From: Filimonas sp.
GTDB lineage: Bacteria > Bacteroidota > Bacteroidia > Chitinophagales > Chitinophagaceae
Assembly (NCBI GenBank): GCA_017306865.1
Contig: JAFKHH010000015.1
Span: 310,001-374,000 of the forward strand
Length of the DNA stretch: 64,000 bases
Direction of reading: 5' to 3'
In this document: one piece after another, positions 19,295 through 61,579 of the stretch
How the letters are laid out: every line of letters begins with the position of its first letter
Position numbering within the stretch: the first letter of the stretch is position 1
The notes under the pieces: generated by a model
Databases searched by the model: none
The model's input: the letters and a program-made list of their open reading frames with translations, nothing else
Told to the model about the DNA's origin: nothing
Made by a program: the position numbers and the translations under genes

Positions 19295-19324
19295 GGTTAT
19301 TATTTTATAAAGACAAACTGAGTA

Positions 19325-19419
19325 TGTACGATGTTAGATGTACGGTAATTGGGAATAGCTGAAATCTTAGTTGACTTTTTTGACCAAATGTTCTATTCTT
19401 TTACATCTAACATCGTACA
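19325..19419. repeat. Inverted repeat TGTACGATGTTAGATGT between DUF1800 and DUF1501 genes
   Basis: A perfect 17-bp inverted repeat has arms at 19325-19341 and 19403-19419, with further reiterations of the word (caaacatcttacatc) after the right arm. It belongs to the tacgatgt family also found at 21280-21305, 49809-49958 and 60725-60860. It lies inside a probable operon, so it may form a stem-loop in the mRNA. Confidence 0.7.
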
Positions 19420-19428
19420 TCAAACATC

Positions 19429-21066
19429 TTACATCAACTGGTATTGCGGTAAGTTCATCAAATATTTATACAGGTTCTTCAACTTGTTCGTTACGTTGTT
19501 ACGGTTTGCTACATCATCGGGTTTATCCGCCAGGTTTTGCCAGGCCTGCGTCCAATAGTGGTCAGACATTTTGCCTTGCAATCCTGATAACAGTACACCT
19601 GATTTCAAATATTCTTTATCCTTATCAGACAAGTCCATCATGTAGAGGGATTGCACTGCGTCATTGATCAACGTATCCGGGTTGCCCGGATCAGAAAACT
19701 GTTTTGCATGGCCAACCGGATCTATTTGCACCTTTACCTGTTGCGGACGCACAATGCCGCTAAAGATCATGCGGTCAGAAAACTGGTTGCGCTTAGGCAA
19801 AGTGTCTGAATTGATCCACATCTTATCAAAGTCAGGTACTTGATAATAGGCAGGCCAGCCCGCTACGTTAGGCGGATCGCCAATGTTTTGCTGCATGTTC
19901 GCAGCAGTGCCTTGTACCTGCAACCAACAATTATACTGGTCTACGTAATTACTGTCTGGCGGGAAACCTAAATCATACTCGCGGCACAACCCAACAGCAA
20001 AATCAATTGGGCTTTTAATAATGCTACCTCTGAATGCGACATCAAAAAAGTGCTTGCTGCCTAGTAATTCTTCGAGTACAGGTTTTATTTCGTAATTATT
20101 CTTTCTGAACGTTTTGGCAAGCGGTGTAATAATATTTTTCTCTGTCGTATCATCTATCACATGATATACAAATTGCCGGTATAGTTTTCTGCAAATAAAT
20201 TTTGAAACTTCTTCCTGTTCAAAGATCATGTTTAACAGGTCATCCAATTCCTTTTCTCCATCCGGCCCTTTACGCCCTGTGATCACGGTGTTCTTATAGA
20301 AAGAAGAAAACTTTTTATCTCCTTCATCGTGCCTGCCCGGCCCAAACTGGCTGTTGAATGTTTTATAGTCAATATAAAATCCCGTCAGTACATGCGCCGC
20401 GGCCTTTACATCATCTTCTGTATAATGTGAGCCCGGTCCTTTGCCTACAGTAAATAACTCCTGTAATTCACGGCCATAATTTTCATCGGGCGCTTTTTTT
20501 GTATTAGCTGTACCATTCAGGTAACGCAACATACATGGGTCTTTCGTAATGGCTTTTACCATTTCTTTGAAGTTACCCAATGCAAATACACGTAACAGTA
20601 CATTGTGCTTGTATAACATCAATGCATTGTCAACTGTGCGGGTTTCTGTAGCGAAATGGTTATGCCAGAACAACACCATTTTTTCACGTAACGTTGGCTG
20701 CTGATTGATCATCAACCCGATCCACCAGCCTTTAAGTGAATTTTTGCGCCTGCCATTATTCATACCATTGTACTTCAGCGTGTTGATCCATGTTTGTCCC
20801 ATTGGAATCTCTTCGTCTGTGTACTTATCGTCATTGTAATAATTGATAGGTGGGGCTGGCATTGGCTCTTCCGTGTTAACTAGGTAAGCAACAGCCTTGG
20901 AGGGAGACATTTTCAGGAAGAGATTAATGTCCTGCTGCTTTGCACCAAATGTGGTTCGCTTTAGTAAATGACGCACTTCTGTTGCAGACCATTGTCCTCT
21001 GTATTTTTTTAACCCACTGGTTACTGGTGGTAGCGTGTTTTCCTTTTGATTTGGATTTAAGCTCAT
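19429..21066 (-). CDS. DUF1800 domain protein
   Basis: The 545-residue protein shows the DUF1800 signatures: EVRHLLKRTTFGAKQQDINLF near residues 30-50 (HLLRRxxFG), MVLFWHNHFATE at about 131-142, NPCMLRYLNGTANTKKAPDENYGRELQELFTVG at 185-215 (ENYARELLELFTLG), AAHVLTGFYID, and NPPNVAGWP-like PPNVAGWPAYY near 405. The family is secreted or envelope-associated in most genomes, although no obvious signal peptide is present here. It forms a pair with the downstream DUF1501 gene. Function is unknown beyond this association. Confidence 0.93.
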   Translation of the reverse strand: MSLNPNQKENTLPPVTSGLKKYRGQWSATEVRHLLKRTTFGAKQQDINLFLKMSPSKAVAYLVNTEEPMPAPPINYYNDDKYTDEEIPMGQTWINTLKYNGMNNGRRKNSLKGWWIGLMINQQPTLREKMVLFWHNHFATETRTVDNALMLYKHNVLLRVFALGNFKEMVKAITKDPCMLRYLNGTANTKKAPDENYGRELQELFTVGKGPGSHYTEDDVKAAAHVLTGFYIDYKTFNSQFGPGRHDEGDKKFSSFYKNTVITGRKGPDGEKELDDLLNMIFEQEEVSKFICRKLYRQFVYHVIDDTTEKNIITPLAKTFRKNNYEIKPVLEELLGSKHFFDVAFRGSIIKSPIDFAVGLCREYDLGFPPDSNYVDQYNCWLQVQGTAANMQQNIGDPPNVAGWPAYYQVPDFDKMWINSDTLPKRNQFSDRMIFSGIVRPQQVKVQIDPVGHAKQFSDPGNPDTLINDAVQSLYMMDLSDKDKEYLKSGVLLSGLQGKMSDHYWTQAWQNLADKPDDVANRNNVTNKLKNLYKYLMNLPQYQLM

Positions 21067-21637
21067 ACACTTTAGTAAATGAGTAAAGAATGAATATTAG
21101 CACATACGTTTGTTTCAACGCATCACTGCTTCAAGCTGACACTTGCACACTTTTGAAACATTTGGAACGCTGTTGTTCGACCATGCAAAACGTTTGAAGT
21201 TTAATGTATATGTTAAATTCTTAACATTAATTTGGACAAGAAGTGAGCCGGAAAATATGTACCGGGGTAAGTACGAATATGTACGATGTTAGATGTACGA
21301 TGTAAAAGATTGGTGATTTCTTTGTGGCGTTGTGTCTTGGAGGCAAAGTCTCGCAAACTGTATGCATAAATTCTCTCGCGGAAAACACAGAATACGCGGA
21401 ATTTCTGTTCTGCATTTTTCACGCTTTCCGCGAGCCCGGTATTTGCGACCTCTCCGTTCTCTCCGACTCTGCGGTAAAAAAATAGTCGCCATTGCAATCG
21501 ATTACATATTGACGGCCGGATTTGAGTTTCTAAACGCCTTAAAAGACTTCAAACGTTTGAAGTGCTTTTTTTGGATAAAATATGTTTATTTGGCACTTGT
21601 TTATTGCATTGTCATACTTAAAAGTCAAGATTGCTGA
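21067..21637. other. Divergent intergenic region with repeated operator-like palindrome
   Basis: No gene is seen. It lies between DUF1800 (minus) and the AraC regulator (plus). It holds a perfect 18-bp palindrome at 21546-21563, a 13-base match to it at 21188-21200, one arm of the tacgatgt repeat family (21277-21305), and a cgcggaaaacacagaa/ttctgttc...ctttccgcg inverted repeat at about 21378-21440. Confidence 0.55.
21546..21563. promoter_or_regulatory. 18-bp perfect palindrome upstream of the AraC gene
   Basis: ACTTCAAACGTTTGAAGT is its own complement and lies 75 bases before the AraC start. The substring AAACGTTTGAAGT recurs at 21188-21200, about 120 bases upstream of the DUF1800 start. This layout fits an operator for a dimeric regulator controlling both directions; the following T run means a terminator reading is also possible. 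Confidence 0.45.
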
Positions 21638-39842: not shown

Positions 39843-41270
39843 CTACATATATCCCAGTATCTTCAACATGCTCTGAGCTGTTTGCTCCTTTGCATATACC
39901 CAATCCACCAGTTTGCCGCTCTTGTCGTGGCCCACGATGATGTGTTTAGGTGATGGGATCATACAGTGCTTAATGCCACCGTAGCCGCTGATCTGGTCCT
40001 GATAAGCGCCTGTGTGGAAGAAGCCTACATACAGCGGTTCCTTGTTCGGGGAATCGCCCTTATTGTTCAGGTGCTCCAGCTTTGGCAGGAACACCTCATT
40101 GATGTGTTCCTCCGAGTCATAATAGTCATGGCTATCACACGTGATACCGCCTAAGACGACTCGCTGGTAATCGTTATCCCACTTATTGATCGGTAGCATC
40201 AAGAACTTCTCCCCTATACCCCACGTATCAGGCAGTGTAGTAATGAAAGAAGAATCGATCATATACCAGATCTCACGGTCATTCTGTTCCTTCTGGCCAA
40301 TAACGCTATAAATGTGCGCCATGCTCTCACCTACTGTGTAAGAACCAAACTCTGTATAGATGTTTGGCATTGGCACTTTCGCTTTTTTACAAGCCTTTTT
40401 AATGTTACCAATGATCTCGTTGATCATAAACTGGTAATCGTATTCAAAGCCCAAAGAGTGCTTGATCGGGAAACCGCCACCTATGTTGATAGAATCCAGC
40501 TCAGGGCAGATCTTCTTCAACTGGCAGTACAGGTTAATCACCTTATTCAGCTCACTCCAATAATAGATATCGTCTTTAATTCCCTTGTTCAGGAAAATGT
40601 GCAACATCTTCAACTGGAACTTATGTTCGTAGCCTTCTATATTGTCTACATAAAACTCCAGGATGTCGCGTGCGCGAATGCCCAGTCTCGATGTATAGAA
40701 CGGGAAGTTAGGTTCCTCTTCTGCCGCTACACGTATCCCCAATTTAAATGGTTGTCTTACGCTTCTTTTGTACGCGTCCAGCTCATCCTTATTATCCAGT
40801 ACCGGTATTACATTTTTAAAGCCGGAATTGATCAGCTTTGCAATGCGGGATGTATATGTTTTCTGCTTGTAGCCGTTACAGATAATAAACGTTTCTTTCG
40901 TTATCTTCCTGCGGGCATACAACTTGTTAATGATCTCTATGTCGTATGCAAAAGAAGTCTCCAGGTGAATCTCGTGCTTCAGCGCCTCTTCTACTACAAA
41001 AGAGAAATGCGAACTCTTGGTACAATAACAATAAAAGTATTTGCCTTCGTATTTATGCTTCTTAAAAGCATCGGCAAACATCTTTTTTGCTTTATTGATC
41101 TGCATACCAATTTTGGGAAGATAGGTCAGCTTCATTGGCGTTCCATGCTTCTCAATCAACGCTTTCAAGTCTAGTCCGTTAAATTGCAGGTAACCATCGT
41201 CATCTACATTAAAACCTTCTTGTGGAAAGTGAAAGGTTTGTTTCACCAGGTCGGTGTAGGTATTGTTCAT
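39843..41270 (-). CDS. speA: Arginine decarboxylase (PLP-dependent, fold III)
   Basis: Start at 41270 (MNNTYTDLVKQTFHFPQEGF) gives 475 residues, the length usual in Bacteroidota; the frame open to 41366 adds an unlikely leader. Residues include YFYCYCTKSSH with the PLP lysine (about K96), SINIGGGFPIKHSLGFEYDY (phosphate-binding glycines), and ITCDSHDYYDSEEHI with the CDSxD substrate motif. It converts arginine to agmatine for polyamine biosynthesis. No agmatine-processing gene is adjacent; the arginase-family gene at 49958 belongs with the hut genes. The gene reads alone between two terminators. Confidence 0.92.
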   Translation of the reverse strand: MNNTYTDLVKQTFHFPQEGFNVDDDGYLQFNGLDLKALIEKHGTPMKLTYLPKIGMQINKAKKMFADAFKKHKYEGKYFYCYCTKSSHFSFVVEEALKHEIHLETSFAYDIEIINKLYARRKITKETFIICNGYKQKTYTSRIAKLINSGFKNVIPVLDNKDELDAYKRSVRQPFKLGIRVAAEEEPNFPFYTSRLGIRARDILEFYVDNIEGYEHKFQLKMLHIFLNKGIKDDIYYWSELNKVINLYCQLKKICPELDSINIGGGFPIKHSLGFEYDYQFMINEIIGNIKKACKKAKVPMPNIYTEFGSYTVGESMAHIYSVIGQKEQNDREIWYMIDSSFITTLPDTWGIGEKFLMLPINKWDNDYQRVVLGGITCDSHDYYDSEEHINEVFLPKLEHLNNKGDSPNKEPLYVGFFHTGAYQDQISGYGGIKHCMIPSPKHIIVGHDKSGKLVDWVYAKEQTAQSMLKILGYM

Positions 41271-41636
41271 CCTCTTGACTCTGTTATTGCTTGGGTGAGT
41301 AATAAATTTGCGTACAAAAATAGCTGTTTGACAATTACATACAGGAAAAAAATTAATGCTCCGCAAACACAGGGAGTACAGGGAGGTTTTGTAGGGAATT
41401 ACCAGGTAACCGACAGTAGATTCCCTGGTCCGGCTTTGCTTGCGACGCTCCGTTTATCTGTAGAATATCTATTGAGCAAGCGGAGGAAATATCGAACAAG
41501 GAACAAGGAATGCTGAATGAGGAATAATGTTCAATGCTCAACGTACAATGTTCAATTTTCATTGATCGTTGAAAATTGAACATTGAAAATTTTCTTTACT
41601 TCTTCATCCGAAATTCCTTGTTCCTTGTCCGACATT
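41271..41636. repeat. Intergenic stretch with dispersed element copy F and gttcaat echo repeats
   Basis: No gene is seen. cttgcgacgctccgtttatc, tgtagaat (41440-41466) is a copy of the dispersed element. tgttcaatgctcaacgtaca, atgttcaattttcattgatc and gttgaaaattgaacattgaa (41528-41590) form an echo hairpin. gaacaaggaacaaggaatgc (41483-41512) is mirrored by gaaattccttgttccttgtc (41610-41631). Confidence 0.6.
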
Positions 41637-41664
41637 AAAAAAGGCCGCCCATTCGGACAGCCTT
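41637..41664 (-). terminator. Terminator of the thrS-infC-rpmI-rplT operon
   Basis: On the minus strand AAGGCTGTCC pairs with GGGCGGCCTT (two G-T wobbles) around GAAT and is followed by TTTTTT, about 25 bases after the rplT stop. Confidence 0.85.
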
Positions 41665-41688
41665 CTATTCATTTATTGCTAAGTGCAA

Positions 41689-45574: not shown

Positions 45575-46768
45575 ATGCGGACGAGGATTCTATCATTACT
45601 TCTATTGCTATGCCCGGCACTGTTACCGGCCCAAAGCCTGACTGGTATCTGGCGTGGCACTTTTGTACAAGGTGTGGGCGCATTAAAAGATCAGTATAAA
45701 TATGAAGTGCAGATCAACCAGGCGCCAAATAAGGCACTCAATGGTGTTACTTACTCTTATTTAAATACAGCGTTTTTCGGGAAAGCTGTTTTGCAAGGCA
45801 TTTTCATGGATAAAACCGGGGATGTGATTGTAAAAGAGAGCAAACTGGTGGAGCTGAAAACAGCTACCGGCAGCCAGGGATGCCTGATGACCTGCTATCT
45901 TACCTATCATAAAGATGGTAATGAAGAATATATGGAAGGCTCCTACTCCAGCGTAAATGTAAAGGATAGTGGCTATTGTGGTGGCGGACGTGTGTATCTG
46001 AAGCGCGTGCCTGAATCAGAATTTGGCAAAGAAGAGTTCCTGTTGCCGAAGGATAAGAATGGACAGTACCAGGTAAAGGGAATAAAGCCGGGCGCGGCAG
46101 ATGCCCTGGTATCAAACAAACGCCCGCAAACAACATATAGCAATACGCCGAAAACGAATGCAACACCTAAAACTTCGACAAGTAAAACGCCTACTAAACC
46201 TCCGGTGAAGCAAAGCCAACCGCTGGCTGGCAATAAACCGAAACCGAATACACAGTCGTCTGCACTGGGCAAGTCTAAAACAGATGCGGCACGGGTACCG
46301 GCAACTACAATACCGGTAAACCCGGATTCGCCGGGCATTGTAAAAACAGAACCTCCCGCCGTAATTGCGCCGGTGTTGCCACAAGTGCAAAAGCCGCAAC
46401 TGCCTGTACCTTCCATTCTGAAGGAAAGAGAAAATAAACTGGTAAGAACGATTGTTACGCATTCTAATACGATTAAGATACAGTTGTATGACAATGGCGA
46501 GATTGATGACGATACGATTACTGTATATCACAATAATGCAATAGTTGCGTTTAAGCAACGATTGTCACATACACCAATTACCATCAACATTACAGCGGAT
46601 GAAAATGACCCGTTGCACGAGTTGGTAATGGTTGCGGACAATATGGGTACCATACCTCCAAACACGGCGCTAATGGTGATATTGGCGGATAATAAACGTT
46701 ATGAACTGACGCTGACATCTACAGAGCAAAAAAATGCGAAGGTGTTGATTAGGTTTGAGAAGGGATGA
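45575..46768 (+). CDS. Secreted hypothetical protein with Pro/Thr/Lys-rich middle
   Basis: Start at 45575 (MRTRILSLLLLLCPALLPAQ) gives a 397-residue protein with a signal peptide; the longer frame adds 36 unlikely residues. Residues 20-150 form a beta-rich domain (LTGIWRGTFVQGVGALKDQYKYEVQINQ...). A low-complexity linker (about 175-290, rich in TPKTSTSKTPTKPPVK-type sequence) follows. The C-terminal domain (about 295-397) begins VRTIVTHSNTIKIQLYDNGEIDDDTITVYHNN, resembling secreted calcium-binding-like beta domains common in this phylum. No enzyme motif is seen. It ends at a strong terminator. Confidence 0.8.
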   Translation: MRTRILSLLLLLCPALLPAQSLTGIWRGTFVQGVGALKDQYKYEVQINQAPNKALNGVTYSYLNTAFFGKAVLQGIFMDKTGDVIVKESKLVELKTATGSQGCLMTCYLTYHKDGNEEYMEGSYSSVNVKDSGYCGGGRVYLKRVPESEFGKEEFLLPKDKNGQYQVKGIKPGAADALVSNKRPQTTYSNTPKTNATPKTSTSKTPTKPPVKQSQPLAGNKPKPNTQSSALGKSKTDAARVPATTIPVNPDSPGIVKTEPPAVIAPVLPQVQKPQLPVPSILKERENKLVRTIVTHSNTIKIQLYDNGEIDDDTITVYHNNAIVAFKQRLSHTPITINITADENDPLHELVMVADNMGTIPPNTALMVILADNKRYELTLTSTEQKNAKVLIRFEKG

Positions 46769-46804
46769 GGATAAATTGCTGAATGGCTAAATGGTTACAT
46801 TGCT

Positions 46805-46842
46805 AAGCCTGCCCGGTCTTAAAGACCGGGCAGGCTTTTTTA
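46805..46842 (+). terminator. Terminator with agcctgcccggtctt stem
   Basis: AAGCCTGCCCGGTCTT pairs with AAGACCGGGCAGGCTT and is followed by TTTTTT. The stem resembles the cctgacaggtctt palindromes elsewhere in the window, with gcccgg replacing gacagg. Confidence 0.9.
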
Positions 46843-46871
46843 GCCAGAAAATAGCTGAATAAAGAACGGAA

Positions 46872-46920
46872 CGATGAAGTGAGTGACACAAGGGACGGTG
46901 AGAAATATTTCTACAGATAA
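46872..46920 (+). repeat. Dispersed gtgagtgacacaag element, copy G
   Basis: gaacggaacgatgaagtgag, tgacacaagggacggtgaga and aatatttctacag parallel copies D and H, between two terminators. Confidence 0.55.
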
Positions 46921-46930
46921 TACCACAAAA

Positions 46931-46972
46931 AAAAGAACCGGCTGGTAAATCAATTACCAGCCGGTTCTTTTT
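46931..46972 (-). terminator. Bidirectional terminator before the DUF3347 gene end
   Basis: AAAAGAACCGGCTGGTAA and its complement form an 18-bp perfect stem with a 5-nt loop, bordered by A and T runs, 77 bases beyond the stop codon of the DUF3347 gene. Confidence 0.9.
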
Positions 46973-47048
46973 TTAAAAGCGTTATATCGTAGAGAACAAA
47001 AAAACCTTGGTGTTCCCTTTCTGTCTTTGTGTGCCTTCGTGGCTACGG

Positions 47049-47845: not shown

Positions 47846-49804
47846 ATGCTATTAGGTTTAAATAATGTGACATTTGAATTTGGCGCCCGTGTAATTGTAG
47901 AAGAGGCCACCTGGCATATTCATCCGGGAGAGCGTATCGGGCTGATCGGCTATAACGGTACCGGTAAATCTACTTTGCTGAAACTGATGGTGGGCCAGTA
48001 CCAGCCATCTGTAGGCACAGTGGAAAAGAGCCGCGGCACTACGATCGGGTATTTGCACCAGGACTTATTGAGTTTTGATACCAATGATTCTATCCTGGAA
48101 GTGGCCATGGGTGCATTTGAGCGTGTGAAGCAGTTGGAAAAAGAGATAGAGGACTTGAGCAAGAAGCTGGAAGAAACCAGTGACGAGGCGTTGCTGAATG
48201 AATATATGGAGAAGCTGCATGAGCTGGAAGTGCTGGGCGGCTACGAAATTCACCACCGTACGGAGGAGGTTTTGCAAGGCCTTGGTTTTGCTAATGCTGA
48301 CCTGGGACGGCCTTACCGTGAGTTTAGCGGTGGCTGGCGTATGCGTGTGCTGCTGGCAAAAATGATCTTGCAACAGCCGGACCTGTTGTTGCTGGATGAG
48401 CCTACGAACCACTTGGACTTACCTTCTATTGAATGGCTGGAAAAATACTTGCAGCATTACCAGGGCAGTGTGGTAATTGTGAGCCACGATAAATATTTTA
48501 TGAACCGTATGGTGAATAAGATAGTGGAACTATACCAGCAACAATTGCACATATACTCTGGCAACTACGAATACTACGAGAAGGAAAAAGAGATACGTGT
48601 AGAGATGGCGCAGCGTGCGTTTGAAAACCAGCAGGACTATATACGCCAGCAGGAAAGGTTTATAGAACGCTTTAAGGCGAAGGCATCGAAAGCGGCGGCG
48701 GCACAGAGTGCTATGAAGCGACTGGATAAGCTGGACAGGGTGGAACAGGTAGAAATACAAAGACCAAACCTGCGCATCAACTTCCAAGTGGACAAGCAGC
48801 CGGGTAAGGTGCTGGTGGAACTGAAGCATGTAACAAAACAATTCAAAGACCTGACGATTGTAGAAAATGCAACGGCAGAGATAGAACGCGGCGATAAGAT
48901 AGCCCTGATAGGCGCGAATGGTAAGGGTAAGTCTACCCTACTCCGCATTATTGCCGGTGTGGAGTCTTTTGAGGGACAACGTACCTGGGGACACAATGTG
49001 GATGAGAGCTTTTATGCACAGCACCAATTGGAGGCGCTGGACCTGAACAATACTATACTGGAAGAAATGGTTAGCTGCCGTAGCGGTAAAACGGAACTGG
49101 AACTACGCTCTTTATTGGGTTGCTTCCTGTTTGGTGGCGATGATGTAGATAAGAAGATTAAAATACTAAGCGGTGGTGAGAAAGCGCGTGTGGCATTGGC
49201 TAAGGTAATTGTAAGTAAGGCAAACTTCCTGATGCTGGATGAACCTACGAACCACCTGGATATGCATAGTGTGGAGCTGTTGGTGGAGGCGCTGAACAAA
49301 TACCAGGGCAGTATTATATTGGTAAGTCACGACCGTTATTTCATTTCTAAAGCGGCTAATAAGATATGGGAGATCGTGGACCACGAGATCAAAGAATTTA
49401 AGGGCACTTACCAGGAGTGGATAGAATGGAAGGAACGTATGGCGAAGCAACAACGCCAGGCGGAACAACAGAAAAACAAGGAGGAACAGGCGACTAAAAA
49501 GATAGAAGAGGTAAAACCGAAAGAGGTTGCCCCCGCTCCTGTTGTAAACAATAACCTGGACAGGGACCAGAAGAAGGAACTGCAACGCCTACAAAAACAA
49601 TTTAGCAAACTGGAAGCGGATATTGCTAAAATGCAGGAGGATAAAACAAAGATAGAATTAGCACTGGCTGACCCGAATAGTTATTCCGATAAAAACAATT
49701 TTGCTAAAGTAGAGCAGGATTATAAAACAATACAGGATAAGATTAAGGCTGCGAATAAGGAATATGAGCAGTTGTTTGAGAAGATTATGGAATTGGAAAG
49801 TTAA
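47846..49804 (+). CDS. ABC-F family ATPase
   Basis: The 652-residue protein has two ABC domains: Walker A GYNGTGKST (about 35-43) and GANGKGKST (about 352-360), signatures FSGGWRMRV and LSGGEKARV, Walker B LLLLDEPTNHLD and FLMLDEPTNHLD. They are joined by the ABC-F linker (about 245-300, FENQQDYIRQQERFIERFKAKASKAAAAQSAMKRLDKL), with a Uup-like C-terminal coiled coil from about 535 (LQRLQKQFSKLEADIAKMQEDKTKI). There are no membrane helices. ABC-F proteins act on ribosomes; this one resembles the Uup/EttA-like housekeeping types more than antibiotic-resistance types. Confidence 0.95.
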   Translation: MLLGLNNVTFEFGARVIVEEATWHIHPGERIGLIGYNGTGKSTLLKLMVGQYQPSVGTVEKSRGTTIGYLHQDLLSFDTNDSILEVAMGAFERVKQLEKEIEDLSKKLEETSDEALLNEYMEKLHELEVLGGYEIHHRTEEVLQGLGFANADLGRPYREFSGGWRMRVLLAKMILQQPDLLLLDEPTNHLDLPSIEWLEKYLQHYQGSVVIVSHDKYFMNRMVNKIVELYQQQLHIYSGNYEYYEKEKEIRVEMAQRAFENQQDYIRQQERFIERFKAKASKAAAAQSAMKRLDKLDRVEQVEIQRPNLRINFQVDKQPGKVLVELKHVTKQFKDLTIVENATAEIERGDKIALIGANGKGKSTLLRIIAGVESFEGQRTWGHNVDESFYAQHQLEALDLNNTILEEMVSCRSGKTELELRSLLGCFLFGGDDVDKKIKILSGGEKARVALAKVIVSKANFLMLDEPTNHLDMHSVELLVEALNKYQGSIILVSHDRYFISKAANKIWEIVDHEIKEFKGTYQEWIEWKERMAKQQRQAEQQKNKEEQATKKIEEVKPKEVAPAPVVNNNLDRDQKKELQRLQKQFSKLEADIAKMQEDKTKIELALADPNSYSDKNNFAKVEQDYKTIQDKIKAANKEYEQLFEKIMELES

Positions 49805-49808
49805 TACT

Positions 49809-49958
49809 ATGTACGATGTTAGATGTACGATGTACAGCGTAATGGCATAATTGATAAATGGCTATATGGTTAAATTGTTTTTCTTATTAACCATATAGCC
49901 ATTTATCAATTAAACAAGAGACAGAAAGTTTTTACATCGTACATCTAACATCGTACAT
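49809..49958. repeat. Nested double perfect hairpin between convergent genes
   Basis: The outer arms 49809-49834 and 49933-49958 are a 26-bp perfect inverted repeat made of the tacgatgt word. The inner arms 49849-49873 and 49887-49911 are a 25-bp perfect inverted repeat made of attgataaatggctatatgg-like words. The central loop is 13 nt. The structure starts 4 bases after the ABC-F stop and touches the hutG stop codon. Confidence 0.85.
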
Positions 49959-51010
49959 TATTCTACCACTTTCACGAAATCGCTTACCAGGTAACTGATC
50001 AATTTTCCTGTTGATTCGTTTCTTCTGCCATCTTCTAATTGCGTGGCGCCTTCACAAATATGTAAATAGGCTACTTTAGAATCTGCTGCGGTGAAGTGTA
50101 TGTATTGCCTTGCATGTAACGGCTGAATGCCAACCGGTGATGTAGCGCTGCTGAGTATGTTTTCAATACAGTCCAGATCCAGTTCTATACCGCAATAAGT
50201 ATCTTCTGTAAAACCTGTAGCATGTGCAATGGCCTGTATGAAGTTTCTTTTTTCATGGAGGAAAATATCTTCGTAGGTAATGATGTCAATAAATGGATCA
50301 TTCACTATATCTATCCAGGTATTTTGGGTAAGGTAATTTTCATGTATGCCGATCACGCAGTATTTTTCTAAATAGCCATCTTCGTCTGCGTAGCGGAAAC
50401 CATTGCCACTATGCCTGCCTTCTACCGGGCGGAAATCTGCGTGGGCGTCCAGGTTGATCGCATTGATCTGTGCTATAGGTATAACACCGGCCTTGTGCAA
50501 ACCTTTTGCGGCGCCTTTAATACATGGGTATGCGTTGTTGTGCCCCCCACCTATTACAATCGGAATTTTACCGGCCTGCGTAATAGTCCTGACTACATTT
50601 TCCACTGCGTCATCTATAATGTTGACCGCGTGCCGGTACGCTTCTATCCTTTCTTCGTATGATAAAGTATTATTTTCAATGGCTTCGGATAAAGTGGAAA
50701 AATCCATTTGCCCGAGCATGAGTATATTATCACCTACCAAAAAATCATTGCTCTGTATATTCAGGAAAGATTGCAAGAATGGGGCCCATGCAGTGGCTGC
50801 TCCTCCTACACCTGCATTGGCTTTTACACCTATATCTTCAGGAATGCCAAACACTACAAACCTGGCCCTGGAATCTAAGATAGAGGGCTCTACTGCATGG
50901 GGATCTTTTAGCACGTGTACACATTCCCCCAGCTTGGTTTCAAATTTTCGTAAGCGTGTCAACGAAAGAATATCCTGCTTGGAGAATACTTTCAAATATT
51001 GCATAGGCAA
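49958..51010 (-). CDS. hutG: Formimidoylglutamase (arginase/ureohydrolase family)
   Basis: The 350-residue protein has the ureohydrolase manganese motifs: GGGHNNAYPCIKGAAKGL (about 153-170), INLDAHADFRPVEGRHSGNGF (about 185-206; DAHAD), and IELDLDCIENILSSA (DxDx). The arginase family includes arginase, agmatinase and formimidoylglutamase. The surrounding hutI, hutU and hutH genes favour formimidoylglutamase, which releases glutamate and formamide, the last step of histidine degradation. A peptide gap and SGNGFRY in place of the arginase SGNP motif are consistent with this. The start codon at 51010 follows a short AT-rich leader. Confidence 0.88.
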   Translation of the reverse strand: MPMQYLKVFSKQDILSLTRLRKFETKLGECVHVLKDPHAVEPSILDSRARFVVFGIPEDIGVKANAGVGGAATAWAPFLQSFLNIQSNDFLVGDNILMLGQMDFSTLSEAIENNTLSYEERIEAYRHAVNIIDDAVENVVRTITQAGKIPIVIGGGHNNAYPCIKGAAKGLHKAGVIPIAQINAINLDAHADFRPVEGRHSGNGFRYADEDGYLEKYCVIGIHENYLTQNTWIDIVNDPFIDIITYEDIFLHEKRNFIQAIAHATGFTEDTYCGIELDLDCIENILSSATSPVGIQPLHARQYIHFTAADSKVAYLHICEGATQLEDGRRNESTGKLISYLVSDFVKVVE

Positions 51011-56892: not shown

Positions 56893-57180
56893 CTACACAT
56901 TCGCGATCCTGAACGGAATGACTTCATATTTTTCCCAGACTTTTCCTTTTACATACGGATCATCTGCCAGCCATGCGTTGGCTTCTTCTATAGTGGGAAA
57001 ATCGATGATGAGCATGGAGCCGAACATTTTATCTTCATCAGTGAGCTTGGCGCCGCCAACAATGAAGTGCCCGCTTTGCTTAAATGGGCGCACACGCGCC
57101 AGATGTTCTTCCCGGACAGCAAGGCGCCTGTTTAAAGCTTCTGCATCGGTATAGTCGGTTGCAAGGATGAGGAATTGCAT
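56893..57180 (-). CDS. YciI family protein
   Basis: The 95-residue protein matches the YciI-like dimeric ferredoxin fold: MQFLILATDYTDAEALNRRLAVREEHLARVRPFKQSGHFIVGGAKLTDEDKMFGSMLIIDFPTIEEANAWLADDPYVKGKVWEKYEVIPFRIAN, with the typical R-x-x-H-l and DP(Y/F)-x-x-g-v-w segments. Function is unproven; family members may be small-molecule lyases or dehydrochlorinase-like. It lies in the hut cluster between hutU and the patatin gene and is flanked by tacgaagtac repeats. Confidence 0.9.
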   Translation of the reverse strand: MQFLILATDYTDAEALNRRLAVREEHLARVRPFKQSGHFIVGGAKLTDEDKMFGSMLIIDFPTIEEANAWLADDPYVKGKVWEKYEVIPFRIANV

Positions 57181-57189
57181 AAAACAAAA

Positions 57190-57408
57190 TTTTTAAGTAC
57201 TAAGTACGAGGTACAAAGTACGAAAATCCTGACAGGTCTTAAAGACCTGTCAGGATTAGTTGAAGAGCGTACAAAATGATGAAGAGAGTGACACAAGGGA
57301 CGATGATGAGAATTACTATAGTCTGTTCCAAAGTATAGCGTATCTAATATTTCGGAGGGATAAAAAAGCTCATCATATACTTTGTACTTCGTACTTTCTA
57401 TTTAGTAC
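57190..57408. repeat. Repeat-rich spacer: agtacg words, cctgacagg palindrome, element copy H
   Basis: gtactaagtacgaggtacaa (57198) is mirrored by tactttgtacttcgtacttt (57376). Inside lie the perfect palindrome AATCCTGACAGGTCTT/AAGACCTGTCAGGATT (57225-57257) and element copy H, gatgaagagagtgacacaag, ggacgatgatgagaattact (57278-57318). Confidence 0.7.
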
Positions 57409-60719: not shown

Positions 60720-60856
60720 TTATGTTAGATGTACGATGTCAGATGTACGATATTGAATATGATTCAATCATACTTTATAAGCTATCATACATTCATTATA
60801 AATATTATATTCTCTTTCAGTACAAATGTTATATGCACCTTTTACATCGTACATAT
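60720..60856. repeat. tacgatgt echo repeat upstream of hutH
   Basis: tgttagatgtacgatgtcag, atgtacgatattg (60723-60755) is mirrored by ttttacatcgtacatatcta (60839-60859). The spacer includes an AT-rich tandem region. It lies in the hutH leader, so the mRNA could fold here. Confidence 0.55.
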
Positions 60857-61342
60857 CTAATTTTTTAGTTTTTCCTCGATTCTCTCATACAACGATTTTT
60901 CCTGTGCGTTGTTCTCTATTTCTTCCAGCGATTGTAAGATGTATTTGCTGTGTTTTCCTTCCGAAGCCATTGCTTCCATCGCTTGCTGCAATGCAGCCCA
61001 TACCGGCTCTATCTTCTGTTGTAGTTTTTCTCCTTTCGCTGTAAACGTGATGACTTTTTTACGTGCATCATCGGCAGATACTTCACTATGAATTAGTCCT
61101 TTCTCCTGTAAACTGCTTACCATTTGGCTTGCTGCGGAATGTGATGTATTTAGCTCGTCTGCTATCTCGCGGATAGTGACTTCTTTTTGCCTTGATAAGA
61201 TATAAAATATGGGAAACCAGGAGGCGTCAAATGGGATTTTGTGCGTTTTATAGACTTTATTGATGTCTGCTATAAAACTGTCTCCCAGCCTTTTGAGCCT
61301 GCTGCCAAATACTAAAAAACCAAGCTGTTGGTAAAAATTCAT
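60857..61342 (-). CDS. MarR family transcriptional regulator
   Basis: The 161-residue protein has a MarR winged helix-turn-helix: WFPIFYILSRQKEVTIREIADELNTSHSAASQMVSSLQEKGLIHSEVSADDARKKVITFTAKGEKL (about 42-107), with the DxR wing (DDARKK). The C-terminal helices (VWAALQQAMEAMASEGKHSKYILQSLEEIENNAQEKSLYERIEEKL) would dimerise it. It is upstream of hutH on the same strand (about 140 bases), so a role as hut regulator is plausible. MarR regulators also commonly act on unrelated targets. Confidence 0.9.
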   Translation of the reverse strand: MNFYQQLGFLVFGSRLKRLGDSFIADINKVYKTHKIPFDASWFPIFYILSRQKEVTIREIADELNTSHSAASQMVSSLQEKGLIHSEVSADDARKKVITFTAKGEKLQQKIEPVWAALQQAMEAMASEGKHSKYILQSLEEIENNAQEKSLYERIEEKLKN

Positions 61343-61459
61343 AATTATATAAGCGCTTATACAATTTCAAATGTAGGGATTTGTTGGAAATGGAGAAAAA
61401 AATTGTTTAATGGATGAATTGTTTAATTGTTATGGCCTATGGGGTTGACTACTGACTTT

Positions 61460-61566
61460 ACAAGATAGCATCAAACAAAAATCCTGTCAGGTCTTAAAGA
61501 CCTGACAGGATTAAGATGGTAAGAGCAAAACCTATAAGGTTTTAGAAACCTTATAGGTTTGAGCGC
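61460..61566. repeat. Two-hairpin composite element, copy 1
   Basis: The element has arms AATCCTGTCAGGTCTT/AAGACCTGACAGGATT (61480-61512), the linker aagatggtaagagc, and arms AAACCTATAAGG/CCTTATAGGTTT (61528-61560). It lies 14 bases downstream of the minus-strand gene 61580-62218. A near-identical copy occurs at 62265-62370 in the same orientation with compensatory base changes in both stems. Confidence 0.85.
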
Positions 61567-61579
61567 AATTATGGATAGC

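Follow-up and report, generated by a model that had tools for sequence, protein, structure and literature searches.

A nested hairpin between convergent genes in Filimonas sp. and the dispersed short-period words that may shape gene ends

The gap between two convergent genes of a Filimonas sp. genome holds a nested hairpin, and both of its stems belong to repeat families dispersed throughout the genome, so it is not the local oddity that an earlier note on this DNA had described. The hairpin lies in a window of 64,000 nt (the whole stretch of DNA that was analysed). The gap is occupied by two short-period repeat words of a kind dispersed throughout the genome, and one word pair in a convergent gap would serve both genes. 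From the sequence comparisons below, we tentatively propose a dispersed system of several repeat families that makes hairpins anchored at stop codons, plays a terminator or cap role at 3' ends and spreads as discrete words; we give this reading somewhat less than an even chance.

The convergent gap and its two repeat families

The gap comprises 153 nt between the stop codon (49802-49804) of an ABC-F family ATPase gene on the plus strand (47846-49804; ribo_prot_ABC_F, 446 bits against a cut-off of 380) and that (49958-49960) of an arginase/formimidoylglutamase (hutG)-like gene on the minus strand (49958-51010), for which the best match, hutG, scored 67.6 bits, below the curated cut-off of 229. 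Two nested inverted repeats fill it. The outer arm W (plus strand, 49809-49834) starts 4 nt past the ABC-F stop codon and reads ATGTACG ATGTTAG ATGTACG ATGTA; the 'tacgatgt words' of the earlier note are present, and the repeat unit is one of period 7. Its partner W' (minus strand, 49933-49958) is the same word heading away from the hutG-like stop codon, and its last base is the final A of that codon. Enclosed by these arms are a left linker (49835-49847), which by eye is not common to other W pairs, the inner arm V (plus strand, 49848-49873), which belongs to a dispersed period-8 hairpin family of the AATTGTTA AATGGCTA TATGGTTA type, a 13-nt loop, ATTGTTTTTCTTA (plus strand, 49874-49886), the arm V' (minus strand, 49887-49912), which pairs with V, and a right linker (49913-49932) with a T run at its end, before W'. 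In the inverted-repeat search, the outer arms, 98 nt apart, and the inner arms, 13 nt apart, were each identical at 26 of 26 positions. The previously described outer stem of 26 bp and loop of 13 nt thus stand, and the inner stem is of 26 nt, not 25 bp.

The description of the whole gap as a single hairpin of nested perfect stems was confirmed, and its folding lay 14 to 16 standard deviations beyond shuffles. Folded as RNA, the plus strand gave -78.5 kcal/mol (z -13.9) and the minus strand -76.0 (z -13.7; 200 shuffles); folded as DNA, the gap gave -50 (z -15.6). Terminator prediction called no terminator-like site in the gap. T runs occur within the loop and to the left of W', and none directly 3' of either stem, in agreement with the earlier remark that the T tracts of ordinary terminators are lacking; the hairpin does not have the form of a rho-independent terminator, that is, a G+C-rich stem followed by a T tract. 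An Rfam search gave nothing above the gathering score and 15 sub-threshold matches, all to microRNA-precursor families and all on the inner stem, which we discarded as chance similarity to a long stem.

The period-7 word W, ATGTACGATGTTAGATGTACGATGTA, has 148 matches at up to 3 mismatches in the genome (83 + 65 on the two strands; 6.15 Mb in 42 contigs), 51 of them exact, and a reversed-W control has none at the same threshold. We analysed stretches around most of 100 among these 148 matches, some V places, the window and 20 comparison stretches of 20 kb each, hand-picked at round coordinates clear of the W stretches. All of our own stretches amount to about 1 Mb of the 6.15 Mb, and the window plus the 400 kb of comparison stretches (464 kb) is referred to as the unselected sample. 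Because the comparison stretches hold no W at up to 3 mismatches, the window's own being the sole such copies, this sample is if anything W-poor. Genes were called by custom ORF scripts, which place starts only approximately and may have led to wrong labels for some gaps.

In these stretches, 125 copies of W were found at up to 5 mismatches, only one of them inside a gene. The other 124 lie in 90 gaps, with two copies in 34 and one copy, lacking a recognisable W partner, in 56. All 34 two-copy gaps are ordered W..W' and none W'..W. Gene 3' ends are faced by 86 of the copies. The start of 68 of these lies at most 12 nt from the stop, most commonly 4 nt past it (19 copies) or at a base shared with the end of the stop codon (11 copies). 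W is a discrete unit of 26-27 nt, the next base being A in 104 of the 125 copies. For the 68 copies within 12 nt (window and L101-L194), the distance from stop to W is non-uniform modulo 3 (34 in phase 2, 24 in phase 1 and 10 in phase 0). The window has more W at 19324-19434, 21279-21304 and 60729-60754; that at 19324/19434 is an imperfect W..W' pair in a tandem gap. W also occurs at contig ends (G000:C33:27-52 and G000:C37:10193-10218), which suggests that assembly was interrupted by the repeat.

The inner arm has 38 matches in the genome at up to 3 mismatches, with none in the control, and 16 of these form 8 tight inward pairs. It belongs to a period-8 family, the close copies of which have in common a loop starting with ATTGTT. 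The V hairpin is therefore a compact dispersed hairpin located inside a W pair.

Words at gene ends and termination

Besides W, the word families include ATTTGAG, CGTGAGT and AAGTACG (period 7) and ATTGTTA/ATGGTTA (period 8). In the stretches read, W and the other families tend to adjoin stop codons directly and in one orientation, with the word at the far end pointing back into the gap; two words of one family can thereby form a stem that begins a few bases past the stop. Counted with word patterns that were written after the sequences had been seen, a word starts within 25 nt of the stop at 53 of the 233 3' ends of the unselected sample (50 sense, 3 antisense), compared with 9 of 223 start sides. 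With the same patterns, the left ends of convergent gaps have 46 sense and 1 antisense words and the right ends 50 inward and 4 outward in all of our own stretches (91 gaps); the corresponding ratios in the unselected sample (37 gaps) are 11:0 and 14:2. In tandem gaps, inward and outward words number 117:15 on the stop side and 73:2 on the start side in our own stretches (288 gaps), and 23:6 and 11:0 in the unselected sample (100 gaps).

The lag, complementarity and inverted-repeat tests do not depend on word patterns. In the 464 kb, self-match at lag 7 within 40 nt after stops was 34.2% against 27.3% expected (z 13), and that at lag 8 was 30.6% (z 6); before start codons the lag-7 value was 29.2% against 27.6% (z 3). 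Long inverted repeats (score of at least 16) were present in 18 of the 46 convergent gaps; among tandem gaps the count was 13 of 126 and among divergent ones 1 of 41, and shuffled gaps had none. Complementarity between the two ends of the same gap (score of at least 10) was found in 8 of 49 convergent gaps, compared with 3.0% when ends were swapped between gaps, and in 28 of 135 tandem gaps, compared with 2.5%. The same word family stands at both ends of 22 convergent gaps (11.8 expected) and 40 tandem gaps (16.0 expected) in our own stretches, a set that favours W and V. In the unselected sample the excess was again observed for tandem gaps (7 against 2.3 expected, p 0.001) and was not significant for convergent gaps (4 against 2.8, p 0.33). 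Pairing of gap ends is thus real but not universal.

Further arrangements of words were noted by position. Window gaps 46768-47048, 57180-57408 and 61342-61579 have short perfect palindromes ending in GGTCTT / AAGACC, the gap at 57180 has an AAGTACG-type inverted pair too, and gap 41270-41688 has nested ACAAGGA and CAATGTT word pairs. The gaps at L169:17884-18295, L161:12905-13428 and L165:1934-2091 are made up of several word families arranged in concentric shells, which gives the impression of one pair set inside another. As for the idea that words provide backup stops, 52 worded ends have 3.33 sense and 1.46 antisense stop codons per 40 nt, against 2.32 and 2.25 at 161 unworded ends. The frames closed at worded ends are barely more than in shuffles (2.13 against 1.93), so this enrichment may follow from composition.

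Beside recent formation and selection as a cruciform, the earlier note had offered selection as a strong bidirectional terminator as one explanation of the perfect arms, and the distribution of ordinary terminators gives this partial support. In tandem gaps, ordinary T-tract terminators occur in none of the 60 gaps with a stop-proximal long inverted repeat, compared with 37 of 279 others (p = 0.0009), and a second detector gave none of 60 against 46 of 279; in the unselected sample this absence was not significant (0 of 13 against 23 of 111, p 0.12). In convergent gaps, however, no clear exclusion was seen (6 of 33 with a long inverted repeat against 15 of 78, p 1.0), and worded gaps have terminators in 20 of 72 cases against 17 of 39 unworded ones (p 0.098). 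The sequence TAnnTTTG is a Bacteroidota-type promoter box. It precedes the next gene in 12 of the 60 tandem gaps with a long inverted repeat and in 49 of the 279 others; being as common there as elsewhere, it indicates that the former gaps do not simply lie within operons. An ordinary-looking terminator hairpin stands between the arms of several W pairs, in which case W' would be outside the same transcript. The stems may be 3'-end structures able to replace a terminator or cap the mRNA, a role that we hold with modest confidence.

Divergence of the arms and related genomes

Gene conversion between arms had been proposed for this hairpin, with independent divergence of the arms named as the observation that would speak against it. 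Comparison between copies in one genome gives a different answer for each stem: the outer arms diverge almost independently, against conversion, and the inner arms do not, in favour of joint change. In the 34 W pairs, the mean number of mismatches is 2.09 within a pair and 2.24 between pairs (permutation p = 0.086). The pairs contain 71 differing cells, with 7 shared variants against 3.0 expected, and both arms are exact in 8 of the 34 pairs against 4.5 expected. W arms thus differ within pairs about as much as between pairs, and since 51 of the 148 genome matches are already exact, no special local event has to be invoked for the perfect outer stem.

For the inner stem, 4 of 25 base pairs have changed on both sides in nine close copies, compared with 0.4 in shuffles (none of 500 reached 4) and 0 or 1 in slid controls, and one of the double changes occurs in the copy of this window. 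An alignment by MAFFT of 14 V-like hairpins misplaced diverged arms by one octad; the covariation count rests on the nine close copies, 5 of the 14 being left out. When partners were chosen solely by fit to the consensus, at four cut-offs, differences within V pairs fell below those of shuffled pairs each time: 21 against a mean of 29.8 for 12 pairs (2 of 5,000 shuffles as low), 63 against 87.4 for 20 pairs (0 of 5,000), 131 against 161.0 for 29 pairs (0 of 5,000) and 252 against 285.4 for 44 pairs (1 of 5,000). Picking partners partly by likeness (up to 8 differences), a choice that leans to the result, gave 192 against 261 for 41 pairs; the signal persists with consensus-fit partners, with a smaller gap. 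Drift directed by G-U pairing in tandem pairs gave no signal (9 wobble-keeping and 10 other transitions).

A rival explanation of the nested hairpin, in line with the conversion idea, is local palindrome making, in which template switching or hairpin-templated repair would produce one arm as a copy of its partner. The covariation of the inner stem agrees with it, as do V-like hairpins at L162:5255 and L192:5034, in which an unusual sequence is common to both of the hairpin's own arms with one mismatch. However, dozens of loci have one and the same 26-27-nt word as the outer arm, pairing does not extend beyond W save for one common A, and the outer arms differ within pairs much as they do between pairs, so we consider this origin quite improbable for the nested hairpin.

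W is sporadic among relatives, which by hutG are Chitinophagaceae. Of 147 genomes of this family, 14 have it, the present one among them; G055 has 219 copies, G057 has 42 and G064 has 21, and among 118 genomes drawn from the phylum it is present in this genome only. Placement is looser in the stretches of G055 and G057, many copies being in arrays or away from stops; the four pairs there with arms less than 50 nt apart (L217, L218, L219 and L222) are all W..W'. Contig C34 of G064, another Chitinophagaceae genome, has a long uninterrupted array of ATGTACG heptamers (270258-270374).

The ABC-F and hutG-like genes are adjacent and convergent, with a gap of less than 400 nt or an overlap, in 13 of 80 named loci. 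In 7 of these 13, at most 16 nt separate the stops or the genes overlap, and there is no hairpin, which indicates that it is dispensable at this locus. The gaps of L040 and L085 have no strong inverted repeat, and that of L033 has an ordinary-looking terminator. In L067 (Sediminibacterium soli), the same gap has a 27-bp perfect pair of the CGTGAGT word with 93 nt between its arms, and those of L079 and L087 have TTGAATGTT-like and CACAAAG-like inverted words, which are weaker and were recognised partly by eye. Among 79 of the 80 named loci (L070 came without sequence and was left out), 8 hutG-like 3' ends have a short-period array, seven of period 7 and one of period 6, with different words. 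A hairpin lies within 25 nt past the stop in 7 of the 79, three of which have an array too; shuffles gave 0 for both. Four of these seven hairpins are built of repeat words (L042, L059, L060 and L067), those of L033 and L037 look like ordinary G+C-rich ones, and that of L063 is a weak A+T-rich match. Relatives thus have at this gene end other words, an ordinary terminator or no hairpin, and the feature is patchy.

The lag-7 self-match after stops was 33.0% against 27.9% (z 10) in 78 of the 80 named loci, L054 and L087 being dropped for runs of N, and before starts it was 31.3% against 29.5% (z 4). In 20 arbitrarily chosen genomes of the family, the signal after stops (29.5% against 26.2%, z 5) is weak and not clearly above that of the start side (29.5% against 27.5%, z 3). 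Outside the family the self-match is near background (28.1% against 25.7%, z 3, after stops; z 3 before starts).

W..W' could be a non-autonomous mobile unit, an element of REPIN or MITE type bounded by inverted repeats, inserted in the short gap and moved by a transposase such as RAYT. Relatives with 7-16 nt between the same stops resemble empty sites, W copies are dispersed and near-identical, their pairs face inward only, and the genome has four matches to Y1_Tnp (PF01797). Against this, the spacers between W and W' look unrelated and vary in length between 13 and 422 nt, and several contain a terminator-like hairpin of their own; one arm only is found in 56 of the 90 gaps; target-site duplication is absent (mean 1.41 against 1.42 permuted, 34 pairs); and the flanks of two of the four Y1_Tnp genes are without W, L020 having a different, G+C-rich repeat and L019 other words. 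W pairs show neither the shared internal sequence nor the target-site duplication of MITEs, and W is unlike a MITE in being a discrete unit with no such duplication and no evident shared spacer. An insertion of this kind seems unlikely to us. Inverted GGCGCAGGCCTCCCGGCC-like repeats, probably a genuine REP system, stand on both sides of the gene for a RAYT-type Y1 transposase in L020 (G000 contig C29, near 726783), and a pair like these repeats occurs in L161:12905-13428.

Another possibility is that the words are selfish or neutral tracts, short-period repeats that spread by slippage and recombination and survive where they are harmless, past stops, with hairpins as by-products. Their dispensability in relatives, their patchiness across the family, the near-independent divergence of the outer arms and the common partnerless copies all fit. 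Neutral retention alone, however, leaves unexplained why the words have a polarity, why those on the start side of tandem gaps face inward (73:2), why pairing within the same gap is in excess and why changes of the inner stem are compensated, and we regard it as a minor possibility.

Known systems and possible role

The system resembles in spirit both REPINs and paired DNA-uptake sequences and matches neither. REPINs, or REP doublets with RAYT transposases, are similar in being inverted, extragenic and dispersed, in having a spacer of lower conservation and in their predicted hairpin fold (PMC3116915). W, by contrast, is not palindromic, mostly adjoins stops, has spacers of 13-422 nt and was absent from the flanks examined, those of two RAYT-type genes. 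W copies are dispersed extragenic inverted doublets (34 of 34 inverted, 1 of 125 genic), yet single in 56 of 90 gaps. By eye, W is self-complementary only at GTAC.

DNA uptake sequences (DUS) of Neisseria are reported often to form close inverted repeats that function as terminators (PMC2397512). A DNA-uptake-type signal that doubles as a terminator when paired would likewise be a short genome-wide word often found in inverted pairs at gene ends. The 6.15-Mb genome has 148 copies of W, whereas the uptake sequence reaches about 2,000 in each neisserial genome (PMC2397512), and only 1 of 125 W copies lies inside a gene. W has neither the high density nor the genic copies of an uptake sequence, and several unrelated words have the same placement in one genome; such a function is very improbable. 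Compared with the DUS and USS pairs of Neisseria and Pasteurellaceae (PMC2397512 and PMC2267715), which also are genome-wide words with close inverted pairs reported to serve as terminators, W has far fewer copies, is almost only intergenic, stands beside several unrelated words, and has long spacers and no T tract past the stem.

TAACTGA heptamers of Beggiatoaceae, cyanobacteria and five Bacteroidetes are similar in being intergenic 7-base words with polarity, stop codons in all frames and a patchy distribution; they are direct repeats mostly just before starts, whereas the words here follow stops in inverted pairs (PMC4679880). Rho-independent terminators and the general excess of inverted repeats past bacterial stops are also hairpins downstream of the stop, favoured in convergent gaps (PMC13155455). 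That survey places the peak at +50 to +80 with mainly 4-5-bp spacers; the outer stem here starts 4 nt past the stop, has 98 nt between its arms and has no T tract (PMC13155455). A literature search by word strings found nothing relevant. The cyanobacterial STRR heptamers are heptanucleotide intergenic repeats, and we know of no inverted, stop-anchored pairing among them. In the literature on the nearest relatives, as represented largely outside subscription journals and in part, stop-anchored, inward-facing words are not described. The recurrence of the words around this genome, mostly just past stop codons and pointing into the gap, suggests that the decoration of gene ends by words is a patchy and little-described phenomenon.

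Returning to the dispersed system of stop-anchored words that we favour, we infer that its architecture, namely nearness to the stop, inward polarity and self-complementarity, would be kept and not its sequence. The stem may act on the 3' ends of both mRNAs, either by terminating transcription in both directions in a non-canonical way or by capping the mRNAs against 3'-to-5' decay. The words would be copied from place to place as discrete units, probably by a process other than the RAYT/REP system of the genome. A wider proposal, which we put forward as doubtful, is that some Chitinophagaceae punctuate their gene ends with interchangeable 7- or 8-base words placed past stops and facing inward, the paired stems of which would replace terminators between tandem genes; the sequence of the word would be free and swapped between species, stop proximity, polarity and pairing would be maintained, and a machinery would copy the words. 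If the rule holds, a part of the gene ends of some Bacteroidota would have a structured element overlooked by terminator predictors, since the word hairpins have no T tract and a long spacer. If true, structure and polarity would be kept while the sequence is replaced, and the question posed is by what means a 27-base word is copied to a place just a few bases past stop codons.
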